Source of the DNA: Bernardetiaceae bacterium
GTDB taxonomy: Bacteria; Bacteroidota; Bacteroidia; Cytophagales; Thermoflexibacteraceae
Assembly (NCBI GenBank): GCA_025454895.1
Contig: JALONO010000008.1
Location: 1-39,874, forward strand
Reading direction: 5' to 3'
DNA: 39,874 nt
In this document: positions 1,935 through 35,454 of the stretch, in pieces
How positions within the stretch are numbered: the first letter of the stretch is position 1
How the letters are laid out: each line of letters begins with the position of its first letter
Notes under the pieces: generated by a model
The model's input: the letters and a program-made list of their open reading frames with translations, nothing else
Told to the model about the DNA's origin: nothing
The model's database searches: none
Made by a program: the position numbers and the translations under genes

Positions 1935-1942
1935 TACTTTTG
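1935..1942 (+). promoter_or_regulatory. -7 promoter box of glmS
   Basis: TACTTTTG matches TANNTTTG exactly and is the same octamer as the thrC box facing away from it 194 bp to the left. It ends 56 nt before the glmS ATG. No good -33 element is visible. Confidence 0.55.
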
Positions 1943-27534: not shown

Positions 27535-29619
27535 TCAGGCCGTAAACTCAAATCCAATGGCCGTAATGTCATCGGTTTGGTGTTCCTGGCCGCGCCAGGC
27601 GAGTAGCGTGTCGGTGAGCAGGTGCAATTGGGCTTCCGGGGTGGGCTGGTGGGCAAGGTCGGTCAGCATGGCCCGCAAACGCTGGCGGCCAAATTTACTG
27701 GCCGTTTGGCTGGTTAGGCCATCAAAATCCACTCCGCCAAACTGGTCGGTATAGCCGTCGGTGAACAGGTAGAGCCAGTCGCCGGGTTGGAGCGCAAAAT
27801 TTTGGGTGGCCAGCCGGGTAGGTGGGCCTTTTTTAGTGGCTGCCCCGATAGAAAACCGCTCGCCCTTTAGTTCGTGCAGCTGCCCCTGCCGGTTGATAAA
27901 CAAACCTTGGTGCGCCCCGGCAAATTCCAACTGCTGCGCTTTGTGGTCAATGAGGCACAGGGCAATGTCCATCCCGTCGTGGTTAATGCCTTCGGCGTAG
28001 CCCTCGCGTTTGAGGGCCAGTTTCATCAGTTCATCCAGGCGGAGCAAAGCTTGCGCGGGGTCTAACACCCGCTCGTTGTAGAGCACATCTTTGAGCAAGT
28101 TTTCGGCGATAACCGTCATCAAGGCTCCGGGCACCCCGTGGCCGGTGCAATCGGCGGCTACCACCACGGTTACTTCGCCCCCTACCAACGAGGTTCGCTT
28201 GATCTGACGAAACCAATAAAAATCCCCGCTCACGATGTCTTTAGGCTGGTATAAGATGAACGAACTGGGGAGATACGCCTTGAGGCTTTCCTTCTGCGGT
28301 AAAAAAGCGGTTTGAATCCGCAGCGCGTAGTTGATGCTGGCCGTAATTTTCTTATTCTTCTTATCCAAGTCGTCCAAGGTGGTCTCGAGTTCCTCTTTTT
28401 GGGTAGCAATTTGCAAGTTGCGGGCCTCGATCTCTCGGTTGGTTAGGCTCAGGGCCACGTTGAGTTCTGTTTGGGCAGTCATTTGTTGGTCAAGGGCATC
28501 GGCCATATGGACGAAATTGCGGGCCAGGTGGCCAATCTCATCGCCCCGGGTGAGGCTCCGGCCCAACTGACTACGCTGAAGCTCCAATTGGCCGCTCGCT
28601 AGTTGGCGCACGGCCTCCACCAAGTTGAGCAACGGACCCGCAAAATAACGGCCCACCAACCAGGCTACTAAACCTGCCAACGCCGCCATCCCCAGCAAAA
28701 TAGACAACACTTGGCCACGAAGTGACTCCACTGGGGCCAGCGCAGCCGCTTTGGGCAGGCTAATCACCAGTATCCAACCATTGCCAGGGTAATCCAGGTA
28801 CCCTTTTTGTTTCGTGTAGAAAAATAGTTGGTCTCCCACCTCAAAATAACCTTGTTGCTGCTGGCGTAGGTCCTGGCGGGACAACTGCCAGTTTAACAAC
28901 GTAAGGCTGCGGTATTTGCGCTGAAGTACGTCTTGGGGGTTACGGTTCGAGTACAGCACCTGCCCATCAGCTCCGAGTAACTCTATGGTGAGCAGGCTGT
29001 CCAGGGCGTGCAGCGCACCCCCATTGCTCAATATCACTTCGCTTTTAAATACCTCGTGCAGTCGCTCGATACCCACCCGGCTGGCCACTACGCCGGTTCG
29101 TTGGCCCGCCGGGTTTCTCACCACGCTGGCAAAGTGCATCACGGGCCTTTTTAGCGACTCGGAAAAAGACACGTCCATTGCCACATCTTGCGTGTCGAGG
29201 GCGAGCCAATAGTGTTTGCGCAGATGCGTTTGTCCCAAGGCCAAGCCTTCGGTATCGACCCGGCGCACCCGAGCCGTGTCGAAGTACGAGACGCTGCTAT
29301 ACCACGGATTGTGCCGCTTGTGGATTTTCAACAAGGCAGTCAACTCGGCCAGTTGGTCCAAATCGGTGGTTGCAGAAGCCGTCACCAACTCAGGCGTATG
29401 AGCCAAGGTAGTTACATCGTGTAGACGCTCGTACACAAACTGGTCGGTGCCGTGCATCAGAAAACTCGATACCCGCCCTAACCGGGTGTTGATTTCAGCC
29501 TCGAGGGTTTGCCGGGCCGTTAGGTAAGCAAACCAAGCCATGCCAAGACTACTAATCAAGGCAGTAACTAGGCACAGAATAGCCAGTTTTTGAGCAATGG
29601 TAAGTTTTAGCCCGCGCAT
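27535..29619 (-). CDS. Membrane sensor with HAMP and SpoIIE-type PP2C phosphatase
   Basis: A 694-aa protein. TM1 lies around residues 13-33; an extracytoplasmic sensor region (about 35-305, probably dCache-like: YSSVSYFDTARVRRVDTEG, PVMHFASVVRNPAGQRTGVV) follows; TM2 is about 308-330 (ILLGMAALAGLVAWLVG); HAMP about 335-385 (LVEAVRQLASGQLELQ, RGDEIGHLARNF); a coiled coil about 385-430; then a SpoIIE/PP2C domain (VSGDFYWF, AADCTGHGVPGALM, GMDIALCLID, TDDITAIGF) with the metal-binding aspartates. Likely dephosphorylates an anti-sigma-factor antagonist or similar partner in response to an extracellular signal. No anti-sigma or STAS gene is adjacent. Confidence 0.92.
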   Translation of the reverse strand: MRGLKLTIAQKLAILCLVTALISSLGMAWFAYLTARQTLEAEINTRLGRVSSFLMHGTDQFVYERLHDVTTLAHTPELVTASATTDLDQLAELTALLKIHKRHNPWYSSVSYFDTARVRRVDTEGLALGQTHLRKHYWLALDTQDVAMDVSFSESLKRPVMHFASVVRNPAGQRTGVVASRVGIERLHEVFKSEVILSNGGALHALDSLLTIELLGADGQVLYSNRNPQDVLQRKYRSLTLLNWQLSRQDLRQQQQGYFEVGDQLFFYTKQKGYLDYPGNGWILVISLPKAAALAPVESLRGQVLSILLGMAALAGLVAWLVGRYFAGPLLNLVEAVRQLASGQLELQRSQLGRSLTRGDEIGHLARNFVHMADALDQQMTAQTELNVALSLTNREIEARNLQIATQKEELETTLDDLDKKNKKITASINYALRIQTAFLPQKESLKAYLPSSFILYQPKDIVSGDFYWFRQIKRTSLVGGEVTVVVAADCTGHGVPGALMTVIAENLLKDVLYNERVLDPAQALLRLDELMKLALKREGYAEGINHDGMDIALCLIDHKAQQLEFAGAHQGLFINRQGQLHELKGERFSIGAATKKGPPTRLATQNFALQPGDWLYLFTDGYTDQFGGVDFDGLTSQTASKFGRQRLRAMLTDLAHQPTPEAQLHLLTDTLLAWRGQEHQTDDITAIGFEFTA

Positions 29620-29935
29620 GGCTTAAGGAACAACTGGTGGAGGAATAGGGCAGTAATGACGAAATAAGGGATTTCCCTGAACTGTTGGCACAAAATAAAC
29701 ACCAAACTAACCAGCGAGAAATCGCACTAAATGTTCCGCAATCGTTTTGGCGAGTAAGTTTTTCACCGCAATTGGCCCCGCTGTTGGTAGGCCCGGCACT
29801 AACATGGGGGAAAGGCCAACTTTTTTCTTGAAATAATGCCGCTCATCATTAAAATCCTGGTATCCCGATCAATTTACGGACAAGTAGGGATTACGCTAAG
29901 AATTGCGCACCAGGGCCGTCCTTAACCGATCCCAT

Positions 29936-30023
29936 AAAAAAAACCCTGGCCCAGCGCGCCAAGGTTTTAGCAGAGTGGAAACGATGCTATCAATTTCAGG
30001 CTTATGAATCTACATCGATTACG
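29936..30023 (-). ncRNA. Candidate small RNA, about 88 nt
   Basis: On the minus strand, TACTTTTG (30027-30034) is followed after about 88 nt by a terminator: stem 29941-29950 with 29958-29967 (ten pairs, one mismatch) and U8 at 29936-29943. No ORF of note starts inside. The 5' part can pair CGATG with CATCG across about 29 nt. No known RNA family is recognised. It may be a regulatory RNA or a short attenuated leader of nothing downstream; expression is not shown. Confidence 0.35.
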
Positions 30024-30026
30024 ATA

Positions 30027-30034
30027 CAAAAGTA
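30027..30034 (-). promoter_or_regulatory. -7 box of the candidate small RNA
   Basis: TACTTTTG on the minus strand, the same octamer as in front of thrC and glmS. It faces no protein gene. The predicted transcript would run leftward into the terminator at 29936. Confidence 0.45.
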
Positions 30035-30341
30035 TGGGCCAGGTATGAACTGGGTATGACCCGGATTTTAAATTTCGGTTACCCTTTTATTGGTTTTACG
30101 GCAGCGTTTCCCATTGCTTTTGAGGTCTATAATTACCCATGCAATTCAATGATTATCAGCATCTAAGCAATAAAACTCAAAATAATTACCTCAAATGATT
30201 TATTGATTTTGCTAAACAATCTACTTTGCATGATTTTCTCTTCCATTTGTAAAGATTGAGAACACCCACGCTGCATCTTAGCCGTGATAATTACTTAAAG
30301 AACTAAGCTTTTTAATGAAATAAAGTTGCTTTACTGGTTGC

Positions 30342-30454
30342 GGAAGCGATCGTTTCCATCCAGTAACGAAGTTAAATGTCCCCAACAATCGACCTGTGGC
30401 GGCCCAAGCAATGCTCTCAAGTTTTCCGCTTTTTTGCGGGAGCCAGTAACTTCG
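30342..30454 (+). promoter_or_regulatory. Structured leader upstream of pyrE
   Basis: GGAAGCGATCGTTTCC (30342-30357) is a palindrome with one mismatched pair. CCAGTAAC is repeated at 30360-30367 and 30443-30450. CGAAGTTA (30367-30374) can pair with TAACTTCG (30447-30454), enclosing a small CCGC-T6-GCGG hairpin (30426-30439). It is a candidate operator and/or leader structure for pyrE, not proven. Confidence 0.3.
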
Positions 30455-30486
30455 CTCGCGGGTTTCGACTTCACCGCCTTTTGCCC

Positions 30487-31116
30487 ATGACCACCGCCTA
30501 CCAAATTGCCTCCATGCTGTTGCAAACCGGAGCCGTAAAACTCAGCCCAACCGCGCCCTTTACCTGGGCCTCGGGCTGGCAATCGCCCATTTACTGCGAC
30601 AACCGCCTGCTGCTCTCCTACCCGCTCATCCGCCGTTACATCAAAAATGAACTGGCTGCGGCCACTCGGAGCCGCTTTCCCCAGGCGGAAGCCGTGGCAG
30701 GGGTGGCCACGGCGGGCATCCCCCAGGGGGCCTTGCTAGCCGACGAATTGGGGCTGCCTTTTCTGTACGTGCGGCCCAAACCCAAGGACCACGGCCTAGA
30801 AAACCTGATCGAGGGGCGGCTGGTGCCCGGCCAGCAGGTGCTGGTGGTAGAGGACCTCATCTCGACCGGGGGCAGTAGCCTCAAGGCCGCCAAAGCCCTC
30901 ACCGAGGCGGGGGCCAAGGTGGTGGGCATGTTGGCCACTTTTACCTACGATTTTGCCCTGGCCAACCAAGCCTTTGCCGAAGCCCAAGTGCCCTTGCTCA
31001 CGCTTTGCAACTACCCTACCCTGCTGCAAGTGGCCGCCGAGCTTGGCGTGGTGGACCAAGTCCAACTAGCCTCGCTGGAGGCCTGGCGGCAAAACCCGGC
31101 CGCTTGGGGGAAATGA
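30487..31116 (+). CDS. pyrE: Orotate phosphoribosyltransferase
   Basis: A 209-aa enzyme that joins orotate and PRPP to give OMP in pyrimidine synthesis. TWASGWQSPIYCDNRLLLS is the N-terminal substrate region, ATAGIPQGALLADELGLPF is the central core, and VLVVEDLISTGGSS (residues 118-131) is the PRPP-binding motif. Length is typical. I chose the ATG at 30487 because homology starts there; an in-frame ATG (30376) would add 37 unrelated residues and lies inside the structured leader. No other pyr gene is adjacent. Confidence 0.96.
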   Translation: MTTAYQIASMLLQTGAVKLSPTAPFTWASGWQSPIYCDNRLLLSYPLIRRYIKNELAAATRSRFPQAEAVAGVATAGIPQGALLADELGLPFLYVRPKPKDHGLENLIEGRLVPGQQVLVVEDLISTGGSSLKAAKALTEAGAKVVGMLATFTYDFALANQAFAEAQVPLLTLCNYPTLLQVAAELGVVDQVQLASLEAWRQNPAAWGK

Positions 31117-31293: not shown

Positions 31294-34200
31294 TCACTCG
31301 GGCGATAGTTCCAAACGACTGGCTTCTTGGTCGGGGGCGGCCCACCACGGGCGGCTGAACGCGCGCACGAAGGGCCACTGCTTGGCCGCAAAATGGGCAG
31401 GCCGGTAAGCAAACGCGTCTTTGGCCGACAGGGCTTGGTAAAACAAATCATCGTCGGTGAGGATGAGGCGGGCGAGCTGACCTTGCTGCCACTGGGCCAG
31501 GTCGGCAAAGGGCAGGTCGGCGGTGAGGTGGCCGGGGCCTTTGGCCAGGAGCTGATGCTTGAGGTACTGGCCCGCCGCCAACTGGGCCGGGTTGGGCAAA
31601 GCCGGCCGGAACCGCCCCTCCCACACGTCGAGGGCGTATTGTAAATAAGCCCGCAGCATTTTGGGGCCAGGGTTAGCGGTGTCGTCCACGGCCAGTTGGT
31701 GGGGCAGCAGGCTGCTCACCACCACCACCCGCTCGCGGGCGCGGGTAACGGCCACGTTGAGCCGGTTTTCGCCCCGGGCCTGGCTAAGGCTGCCAAATTG
31801 CAGCAGCAACCGGCCGCTGGGGCTGGGCGCATAGCCCACCGAGAACAGGATAATGTCGCGCTCGTCGCCCTGCACGTTTTCAATGTTTTTCACAAACAAG
31901 TGCTCCGGCAGGGCCAGGCCGCTTTCATCCAGCAGGTCGCGAACCAGGTCTTGCTGGGGCGCGTTGAAGGTGATCACCCCGATCTGTTTGTCGGGCTGCT
32001 GGGCCAGCAGTTGGCGCACCAGAGCCACAATCTCCTCGGCTTCGCGTTGGTTGCGGTTTTGCTCCCACTGGCCGTCCACTTTGCGGTACTCAATGGCGGG
32101 CTGTTGCCGGATAAAGTCTTGATAATGAGGCAACATCTGCAACTGGTTTTGATAGAAATGCTGGTTGGAGAAGCCAATGAGGTCCAGCGAGCGGCTGCGG
32201 TAGTGGCCCGTGAGCGGCAGGTTGGGCAAAAAGCGGCGGCCCAGGTCCAGCAGCGACTCTACTTCTAGCTCGGGGGCGTAGTCCGGCTCGTCGGTCAGGT
32301 CTTCCCAACGGGGGCGGTACAGGTCAAACGGGGCCAGTTGCTGGTCGTCGCCCGCGATGACCACCTGCCGCCCCCGGTACATGGCCGGGATGCCCCGCTC
32401 GGCAAAGCATTGGGAGGCTTCGTCGAACACCACCAAGTCGAACAGCTCGGTCATGGGGAACACGGCCGACCCGGACTCCGGCGACACTAGCCAGCAAGGC
32501 ACGAGCCGGAACAGTTCGTCCGCAAAGTGGGCCACCAACTTGCGCAGCGGCCACACCCCCCGCTTTTTGTTGACTTGGTGGCGCAAGTCGCGGAAACTGA
32601 TCAAGTTACGGAGGCGGTTGTACTCCAGTTCGCGCAGCAGGCGTTCCCAGGCGCGCCCGGTGGCCACGGCCTGGCTGAGGGCCTGCTTGTCGGCCACGGC
32701 CGCTTGCAACCCCGCCTCGGCCTGGGCCAAGCCCAACGAGGAGGCTTGCCGCAAACCAGGTTGGGCCTGCTCCAACTCGGCCAGCCAGGCCAACCGAAGC
32801 GAGTTGTCAAACAATTCGGTTAAGTCGGCGGGCGGCGGCTCGGCGGCCAACAACAGTTCCACCACTTGCCGTTGAGGCGGCGTGAGGCTGGCCCGCAGGG
32901 TATCCAACTCGCACAACAACTCAAACTGGGCGGGCAAGTGGGCCAATAAGGCGGCAGCCTGCTGGTTGTGCCCGACGGCGGCCTCCTGCCACATTTGAGT
33001 AATCTGAAAATCAGACAGATATGGTTTCCAACTTTGCCGGGTAGCTTGAAATTGTCCGGCCGCCTGCTGCAAACCGGCCAAGTCGCGGGCCAGTTGGTCC
33101 GGGGCGATCACCTCCACCCAGGCCAGCACGGGGGCCTGGGCCGGGCTGCGCCGTCGCTTGGCCGTTTGCCCGTGGGCCAGGGCCAGCCACAACCGGTGGG
33201 CTTGCAACGCCATCCTAAACTGGGCAAACCAGCGCAAGTAGGCGGCGCGGTCGGGCGCGGTGGGCAGTTGCAGCACCCAGTCCAGCGCATTGGCCTTGCT
33301 GTCAAACTCGGGCTGCTCGGCATCCGACAGCCACTCCACGCTGAGCATGGACAGCCGCTGTTGCTCCAACCGCTCGCGCCGGGCCAGTTTGGCCAGCAGC
33401 ACCCGGGCATTGGCCTCGTTAGGCTCCAGTTGATTACGGGCAAACAGTTGGTTCACTTCTTTTTGGTGCTCACCGAACCATTGCCACCACATTTTTTGCA
33501 GCAAACCAGCTTGGGCGGTCAAAAATTCTTCCAAAAACCCGCGATAAGTAGCGATCTCATCGTAGGCGAGGGTGGTTTCGGGGCCTTCATCGGCAAAGCA
33601 AGCCATCAGGGCCTCCTCGGCCCGGTCAAACCAGCCCCAGTCCACCTCGTCGTAGGGCAAAATGCGCAGAAAATAACGGAACACCTGGTCGTCGTCCACG
33701 TAGGCCAGCACCTGGTCTATTTGGAGTTGGCAGGCTAATATTGCCTCAAAATCAGCTATTTGCAGGCGCGATGCCTCGCTCGGTTCCAACTTGGCCAAGT
33801 GGGGCCGGGCCGCCTGCTGGCACTGGGCCACTTGCTGGGCAAAACCACCCAGCAGGGCTTGCAGCTTGGCCAAATCAGGGAACCCGAAACCAGCGAAGCT
33901 AGCCCGGTTAGCGGCCCAGGGGCTGCCCGCCAGCCGGGCGTGGTATTGCCCATAGGCCCGGAGTTTGGGCATGAACTCGGCCAGGGAACCGAACGGGAAA
34001 TGCCCGTGCAACCCGCCCAAGTCCAGGTGGGGGCGGGCCGGGCTGCTGGTAAGGTAAAGCTCCTTTGCCGAAAGGCCGCACAACGACGTATCGAAAAGGG
34101 CCGTCCGGAATTGATCCAACTGGCGATTGAAACCCTCGATTTGGCGGCAAGCCTGGATAAATTTTTCTTCCTGGTACAGCGAGCCAAGGTCGATTTTCTG

Positions 34201-35454
34201 TTCGTTCTTTTGATAAACCGTGTCGATTTGCTGGCCGATTTGGGCGTAGATGCGGGCCCGATCGTGCTGGAAATCGTGGACCAAAGCCGCAAAGTTGGCC
34301 AGGCTCTTCTCGTGCAGGCGGGCGTACACCACGTCGAGGGCGGCCCGTTTTTGGCACACCACCAGCACCCGTTTGCCTGCGGCCAGGTGGTCGGCAATGA
34401 GGTTGCAAATGAGCTGCGACTTGCCCGTGCCCGGCGGGCCTTGCACCACCAACGACTGCCCGGCCTTAACGGCCTGCATCACCCGCTCTTGCGAGGCATC
34501 GAGCGGATAGGGGCTAACCGTGTTGGTTTCACTGATGTTATTTATTTGTAAATCAAGATTTTGTAACTTACCATCCACAGTTTTGGCGGGGCCGAAAAAC
34601 GCTTCCACGTCTTTCACCTGAGCTTGGTCGATGAGGGTATCGTAGTCGGGCACGAGGTAACTGTCAGCTTGGGGGAACAGGCCCAGCACCGCCTGGGGCA
34701 GTAACTTTAGCTCGCCGGTGCGGGTGGCCGCCTCAAAGTCCGCCTTTTTGAGCGGGCCGAAGGTTTCCAGCCGCTCGGCAAAACTGGCTTGGTTGAAGTT
34801 AATCTCGAGCGGGCCTTCCTCCAACCAGCGGTACAATTCGGTTAAAAATATTTGCGGGTCTTGGCTAAATTCTTCAAAAGAAAAGTCGTAAAAATCTTCC
34901 GCCAGTTTTACTTGGTTGAAATGGGCGTAAGCCAACAAAAATGTCTTGTTCAACACGATGTCCTCATCAGTGCGCCAGCGGAGCACCCAGTCGGCCCCTT
35001 CTTCGCGCAGCTCGACCGGGAAAAACAGCAGCGGGCAGCGGATGGGCGTGTCGTCGTGGAGGCGGCCCTGCACAAACGGAAACCCGAGGCAAAGGTCGTT
35101 GGCCCCGCGCTCTTGCTGCACGGTTTGGTCGGTGCGGTACAGGTTTTTGAGCAGCAGGCTGGCCCGGTTGGTGGCCTGGTCGCGGCTGTCGGCCCGGCGG
35201 CACAGGGCTACCCGTCGTTTGCGGGCCAGCAAGTCGGCCACCAGGGCAAACGAAGGCCGGTTAAGGAGGAAATCGAGCTCGTGGAAATCGAGGAACTGCC
35301 GCTGGCTAAGCCGGAGCAGCAGCAGCGAACGGTTGGTGGCCGACAGGTTGGTGAGCCGCTGCCGGTAGATTTTGAGGAACTTGGCCAAATCAAACGCGGG
35401 TTTAGCGGCGAATTTAGCCACAAACGAGGGTTTGGACGCGGACAGGCGGGCCAC
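31294..35454 (-). CDS. Very large SF1 helicase, DUF4011/Upf1-like
   Basis: A 1386-aa protein. The N-terminal region (RQRLTNLSATNRSLLLLRLS, then LGFPFVQGRL) resembles DUF4011, found at the front of large bacterial SF1 helicases. Walker A is GPPGTGKS (339-346, Lys345); about 650 helical residues follow; then the Walker B FDEASQCF (about residue 1012), AGDDQQLAPF, HYRSRSLDLIGFSN, VQGDERDIILFSVGYA and NVAVTRARERVVVVSSL. The long insert between motifs I and II is the family's signature. No C-terminal nuclease is seen. The start is a GTG at 35454, since no ATG is in frame early. Function in bacteria is unknown; some homologues sit in defence islands, but this one has no such neighbour. Confidence 0.85.
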   Translation of the reverse strand: MARLSASKPSFVAKFAAKPAFDLAKFLKIYRQRLTNLSATNRSLLLLRLSQRQFLDFHELDFLLNRPSFALVADLLARKRRVALCRRADSRDQATNRASLLLKNLYRTDQTVQQERGANDLCLGFPFVQGRLHDDTPIRCPLLFFPVELREEGADWVLRWRTDEDIVLNKTFLLAYAHFNQVKLAEDFYDFSFEEFSQDPQIFLTELYRWLEEGPLEINFNQASFAERLETFGPLKKADFEAATRTGELKLLPQAVLGLFPQADSYLVPDYDTLIDQAQVKDVEAFFGPAKTVDGKLQNLDLQINNISETNTVSPYPLDASQERVMQAVKAGQSLVVQGPPGTGKSQLICNLIADHLAAGKRVLVVCQKRAALDVVYARLHEKSLANFAALVHDFQHDRARIYAQIGQQIDTVYQKNEQKIDLGSLYQEEKFIQACRQIEGFNRQLDQFRTALFDTSLCGLSAKELYLTSSPARPHLDLGGLHGHFPFGSLAEFMPKLRAYGQYHARLAGSPWAANRASFAGFGFPDLAKLQALLGGFAQQVAQCQQAARPHLAKLEPSEASRLQIADFEAILACQLQIDQVLAYVDDDQVFRYFLRILPYDEVDWGWFDRAEEALMACFADEGPETTLAYDEIATYRGFLEEFLTAQAGLLQKMWWQWFGEHQKEVNQLFARNQLEPNEANARVLLAKLARRERLEQQRLSMLSVEWLSDAEQPEFDSKANALDWVLQLPTAPDRAAYLRWFAQFRMALQAHRLWLALAHGQTAKRRRSPAQAPVLAWVEVIAPDQLARDLAGLQQAAGQFQATRQSWKPYLSDFQITQMWQEAAVGHNQQAAALLAHLPAQFELLCELDTLRASLTPPQRQVVELLLAAEPPPADLTELFDNSLRLAWLAELEQAQPGLRQASSLGLAQAEAGLQAAVADKQALSQAVATGRAWERLLRELEYNRLRNLISFRDLRHQVNKKRGVWPLRKLVAHFADELFRLVPCWLVSPESGSAVFPMTELFDLVVFDEASQCFAERGIPAMYRGRQVVIAGDDQQLAPFDLYRPRWEDLTDEPDYAPELEVESLLDLGRRFLPNLPLTGHYRSRSLDLIGFSNQHFYQNQLQMLPHYQDFIRQQPAIEYRKVDGQWEQNRNQREAEEIVALVRQLLAQQPDKQIGVITFNAPQQDLVRDLLDESGLALPEHLFVKNIENVQGDERDIILFSVGYAPSPSGRLLLQFGSLSQARGENRLNVAVTRARERVVVVSSLLPHQLAVDDTANPGPKMLRAYLQYALDVWEGRFRPALPNPAQLAAGQYLKHQLLAKGPGHLTADLPFADLAQWQQGQLARLILTDDDLFYQALSAKDAFAYRPAHFAAKQWPFVRAFSRPWWAAPDQEASRLELSPE

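Follow-up and report, generated by a model that had tools for sequence, protein, structure and literature searches.

Of the readings considered for a promoter-like box and an intrinsic terminator found on the minus strand between a phosphatase gene and pyrE, that of a short noncoding transcript is the likeliest, because the layout is real and resembles that of the tRNA units in the same genome. From the sequence, we give an even chance to the more specific proposal of an Hfq-independent, lineage-specific intergenic small RNA (sRNA) of about 85 nt; it is probably an ordinary short noncoding RNA, so far seen in one bacterium only. The host is a 4.58-Mb draft genome of 389 contigs, and the window (the whole stretch of DNA analysed, 39,874 nt) is its contig C89. 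Among titled matches, those closest to its pyrE come mostly from Cytophagales and allied Bacteroidota. The features discussed below are as follows.

27535..29619, minus: gene of a HAMP-SpoIIE phosphatase of the PP2C type, lying downstream (its dCache match falls below cut-off)
29936..29943, minus: terminator U8 tract, of which four U's also count towards the stem
29940..29968, minus: intrinsic terminator hairpin, 11 pairs (5 of the 11 G-C), loop of 7
29936..30021, minus: putative noncoding transcript, about 85 nt, its start placed about 6 nt past the box from the box position
30034-30027, minus: TACTTTTG, putative promoter, matching the Bacteroidota -7 box TANNTTTG (consensus as given in excerpts of PMC7366714 and PMC9723704)
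30027..30059, minus: CATAC repeated three times, exactly 11 bp apart, TCATACCCAGT TCATACCTGGC CCATACTTTTG, the last copy running into the box; a possible operator
30487..31116, plus: divergent neighbour pyrE, orotate phosphoribosyltransferase
31294-35454, minus: helicase gene, DUF4011/AAA helicase-like protein

Gap, box and terminator

An earlier note on this DNA had described a box and a U8 terminator on the minus strand of an 867-bp gap, with no ORF between them and with the nearest leftward gene lying past the terminator. This description was borne out. The box occupies 30034-30027 and the U8 tract 29943-29936; the first base of the box is 99 nt from the last U of the terminator, and a spacer of 58 nt separates the end of the box from the hairpin on the minus strand. 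The gap spans 29620-30486 and measures 867 bp given a pyrE start at 30487. A longer in-frame ORF opens at 30376, but the alignments with 12 family relatives begin at residues 1-6 when counted from 30487. The start of the phosphatase ORF, at 29619, lies 316 bp beyond the last U. No ORF of at least 20 aa was found to start after the expected transcription start and end before the terminator, and at this limit the stretch has the lack of coding capacity expected of a canonical, high-confidence Bacteroidota intergenic sRNA.

Scored by a scheme of our own, the hairpin reaches 25 and passes both a strict (at least 20) and a relaxed (at least 18) scan. In 3000 dinucleotide-shuffled versions of the gap no terminator equalled this score, and nine scored at least 20; 60 shuffles of the whole window yielded one terminator as high-scoring as the candidate hairpin. 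Judged by its sequence, the terminator is beyond chance, and the candidate has the 3' intrinsic terminator expected of a Bacteroidota intergenic sRNA. TANNTTTG lay 40-200 nt before a terminator scoring at least 20 just once in the 3000 gap shuffles, a pairing that was defined post hoc.

The box alone is weak. TANNTTTG occurred 3223 times in the 3000 shuffled gaps, or about once per gap, and by itself is no more than the chance expectation; the exact octamer TACTTTTG occurred 153 times, or 0.05 per gap. The window contains six copies of the octamer; 100 shuffles averaged 1.25, and no shuffle had as many as six. The claim that the candidate shares it with thrC and glmS proved correct: copies lie at 1935-1942 (plus), 56 bp upstream of glmS (TIGR01135), and at 1740-1733 (minus), inside the thrC ORF (TIGR00260) and upstream of its family-matching part. 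The thrC ORF, opened at 1823, is probably over-long, because the box falls within it. The two genes are divergent, each with its own TACTTTTG box.

To judge such boxes more widely, we used a sample comprising contigs C1-C60 (at most 20 kb of each), picked by number, and the window, in all 607 kb or about 13% of the genome; its 466 gene calls are greedy ORFs of at least about 100 codons, a procedure that misses small genes and admits some spurious ones. In the co-directional gaps of the 607 kb, TANNTTTG stands 48 times on the sense strand and 22 times on the antisense strand, an enrichment which by our own estimate suggests that such a box is correct in roughly half of cases. There is no -33 TTG 16-25 nt before the box at 30034-30027. 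Of 60 sampled boxes no more than 120 nt from an ORF call on their own strand, 16 have a TTG at 17-21 nt, compared with 29 of 194 in coding sequence; its absence counts little against the candidate, because only 16 of the 60 near-ORF boxes have one.

Two repeats were noted around the candidate. A perfect 9-bp inverted repeat, CCTGGCCCA / TGGGCCAGG, at 29945-29953 and 30035-30043, matches the hairpin with the DNA just upstream of the box and is probably due to chance. The CATAC array has no counterpart elsewhere in the 607 kb, where no further CATAC pair with 11-bp spacing was found, and the pattern YCATACN5YCATAC has only two matches in the genome, both of them the array itself; a reversed control pattern also has two. 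The array was noticed after the fact; it could be a single-target operator or a product of chance. A layout of 11-bp-spaced repeats running to the box resembles operators of the OmpR/PhoB type.

Calibration in the same genome

ARAGORN identified five tRNA genes in the sample, which we took as four units (L159, L189, L193 and L204). All four have TANNTTTG 16-26 nt before the first tRNA, and all four have, by the relaxed scan, a terminator after the last tRNA (scores 25, 31, 18 and 29). In our reading of the sequences a TTG precedes each of the four boxes, at N18, N19, N20 and N20. The relaxed scan of the same 82-nt stretch found terminators at 4 of 4 tRNA units versus 22 of 426 ORF ends, and the strict scan at 2 of 4 versus 18 of 426, the 426 being the ORF ends for which all 82 nt were available. 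The layout at the candidate, a TANNTTTG box and then an intrinsic terminator with no protein between, resembles these stable-RNA units, though it is not exclusive to them. The tRNA units differ in carrying the -33 TTG, whereas the candidate has no TTG and no tRNA or Rfam match.

The strict scan (scores of at least 20) found 37 terminators in the sample, distributed as 21 no more than 250 nt past an ORF call on the same strand, six orphans (those preceded by an opposite-strand call), five far after a gene, four in ORF calls and one at an edge. Two of the orphans end tRNA units L189 and L204, and one is that of the window. Another, L197, comes after a presumably PspC-like ORF of about 65 codons; the remaining two, L164 and L194, have no TANNTTTG within 300 nt.

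The far-after-gene class (L155, L156, L170, L172 and L187) includes one terminator, L170, that follows a small ORF, and one, L172, that was hidden there by a single spurious ORF call. At L172 (4115-4013, minus, contig C28) a second box-terminator pair was seen, in which TAAATTTG is followed by 64 nt and then by a terminator of score 29. In our reading a TTG lies 20 nt before TAAATTTG, and the pair is divergent from a nearby ORF that we take to be TatD-like. By promoter match, L172 is a better sRNA candidate than the one in the window.

Searches for relatives

The earlier note had suggested that the candidate be sought in Rfam. Rfam 15 gave no match in the window at the gathering score, and neither a tRNA nor a tmRNA was identified there. 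At lax E-values four sub-threshold matches appeared in the gap, three of them on the hairpin, and all four were taken as chance; the best reached 19.2 of 39 bits. NsiR1 (RF02399) shares with the candidate a terminator hairpin with a U-rich tail, but its match (19.2 bits versus a gathering score of 39, E 0.38) is most likely a chance match to the hairpin.

Conservation of the box or the hairpin in relatives was likewise not seen, as BLASTN found no credible relative in 58 relatives or in 389 genomes of the order. Searches with the whole gap (E up to 0.01) gave matches in 9 of the 58 relatives, and searches with the site gave matches in 7 of the 58 (E up to 0.05) and in 5 of the 389 order genomes (E up to 0.001, with two candidates taken for scoring in each genome). 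Together with one match in the host's own genome (L021) these amount to 24 stretches of 18-41 bases. L140 was set aside as sitting in coding sequence, L021 as looking coding, and L141 as occupying the promoter position of an 85-aa ORF; the other 21 were taken as chance from their length and E-value. In L141, which belongs to another family, a 22-mer at 1522-1501 on the minus strand, CATACTTTTGTATCGTAATCGA, is identical to the candidate's box and start region and ends 8 nt before the ATG of the 85-aa ORF. The two copies are possibly a shared promoter sequence.

A covariance model (R1), which consists of one sequence entered twice and so tests sequence and hairpin, not covariation, found nothing in 12 family genomes at a limit of E 1. 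Its order-wide search of 389 genomes, with up to ten candidates per genome and stricter filters, returned one match, with E 0.007 for one genome and about 2.7 over 390. This match proved to be a terminator directly following a 474-aa ORF in another family and was rejected. Searches of plasmids by BLASTN and of viral contigs by one exact scan returned nothing. With so few candidates scored in each genome, the order-wide searches could overlook weak relatives, and the apparent absence of the candidate from relatives holds at family distance only. Within this scope the proposal fails the refuting criterion that the earlier note had set, a lack of conservation of box or hairpin.

The surrounding neighbourhood was also examined. 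At E 1e-15, phosphatase and pyrE matches were found on one locus nowhere beyond the window (flanks of 1.5 kb or 5 kb, often less), and the best phosphatase match and pyrE lie on different contigs in 12 of 12 family genomes, so that, to the extent that draft assemblies can show it, these genomes do not share the neighbourhood. A survey took up to 600 nt before each of 92 pyrE and 11 phosphatase loci, truncated where the locus ended (L048 and the secondary matches L049-L058 left out). It found sense terminators at three loci, two of which, before pyrE, also had a box, and no antisense terminators.

The putative RNA, rival readings and significance

Under the favoured reading of a short noncoding transcript, the locus would be a monocistronic noncoding RNA gene, with the TACTTTTG box on the minus strand read by the housekeeping sigma factor. 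Transcription would start near 30020 and stop at the U8 terminator near 29936; the product, about 85 nt long, would combine a 5' half of about 50 nt that is weakly structured with the terminator hairpin at its 3' end. Such an RNA, if functional, would, by analogy with its kind, be a trans base-pairing regulator acting through its open 5' half without Hfq. Its predicted folding is unremarkable (z -1.45, with 15 of 200 shuffles folding equally well). Predicted duplex energies with 449 start regions showed no excess, the best being -35.7 compared with -30.7 to -38.6 for the best of each of 15 shuffles; pyrE ranks 331 and the phosphatase 401 among the 449. Hfq (PF17209) has no match in 13 family genomes, including the host (95.6% complete), while the control search matched 5 of 14 named genomes. 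With no Hfq match in the host, any regulation by the candidate RNA would be without Hfq.

The box could instead serve the SpoIIE-type phosphatase gene as its promoter, and the hairpin would then act as a conditional terminator within a 5' leader of about 400 nt. The phosphatase is indeed the next gene on the strand of the box, and there is no other minus-strand TANNTTTG between 29620 and the terminator. However, we consider this unlikely. No anti-terminator pairing was seen, the hairpin being kept in the minimum-energy fold of the leader, and that fold is no stabler than shuffles (z 0.92). Rfam offers no leader match, and there is no leader peptide of at least 20 aa between the start and the hairpin. 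A leader attenuator would be expected to keep its terminator in orthologue leaders, whereas at the phosphatase loci of relatives (33-39% identical) a sense terminator is found in the upstream 600 nt of 1 of 11 (L044), and there without a box.

We likewise regard as improbable that the terminator is an orphan serving to stop antisense read-through from the minus-strand helicase gene across pyrE, the box being a chance occurrence. Our scan found no U-tailed minus-strand terminator between the helicase stop and 29968, which says little because most sampled ORF ends lack a strong one; strong intrinsic terminators stand at only the 18 of 426 ORF ends reported above for the strict scan. The expectation of about one TANNTTTG per shuffled gap would agree with a chance box, but the exact octamer is expected only 0.05 times, and the hairpin lies 1.3 kb from the helicase stop. 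The helicase-like protein itself shows partial, sub-cut-off matches to the anti-phage proteins ProA and Hhe, and its gene is possibly a defence gene.

There is a slim chance that the pair is a functionless remnant, a promoter and terminator surviving from a decayed gene or RNA. The lack of a credible relative among the genomes, plasmids and viral contigs searched would fit such a history, as would the unshared phosphatase/pyrE neighbourhood in the 12 family genomes, as drafts show it; on the other side, no trace of a gene was recognised, and an intact U8 terminator would be an unlikely survivor of long decay. Most improbable of all is a regulated lineage-specific sRNA whose promoter, having no -33 element, is switched by a dedicated regulator binding the three CATAC repeats. 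If true, it would form a one-target circuit, as no further copy of the repeat pair was found in the genome.

As an ordinary short noncoding RNA, the candidate would join a known class, since intergenic sRNAs with such promoters and terminators are already established in Bacteroidota. Excerpts of PMC7366714 report for Bacteroides thetaiotaomicron 124 intergenic sRNA candidates, 49 of them high-confidence and 27 of these 49 strain-specific, with a canonical promoter at 76% of the intergenic candidates; excerpts of PMC9723704 report further intergenic sRNAs in Flavobacterium psychrophilum. The B. thetaiotaomicron RNA GibS, as described in the same excerpts of PMC7366714, resembles the candidate in its canonical-type box, its intrinsic terminator and a 5' part predicted to be largely open; the lack of an Hfq match in the host genome and its family also fits the comparison. 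GibS is 145 nt long, is conserved within Bacteroides and has demonstrated expression and targets, whereas the candidate is a sequence-only prediction of about 85 nt with no relative found. Literature searches that required all terms together found no paper on sRNA in Cytophagales or Hymenobacter.

The proposal of a possible new small RNA stands in part: a possible small RNA is retained, and a conserved new RNA is unsupported by the BLASTN and covariance searches. The calibration is more useful than the single candidate: tRNA units in this genome are characterised by a TANNTTTG box and, after it, an intrinsic terminator without an intervening ORF, an arrangement that could be scanned for without RNA data. 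If real and transcribed, the candidate would be one more lineage-specific small RNA, in Cytophagales.
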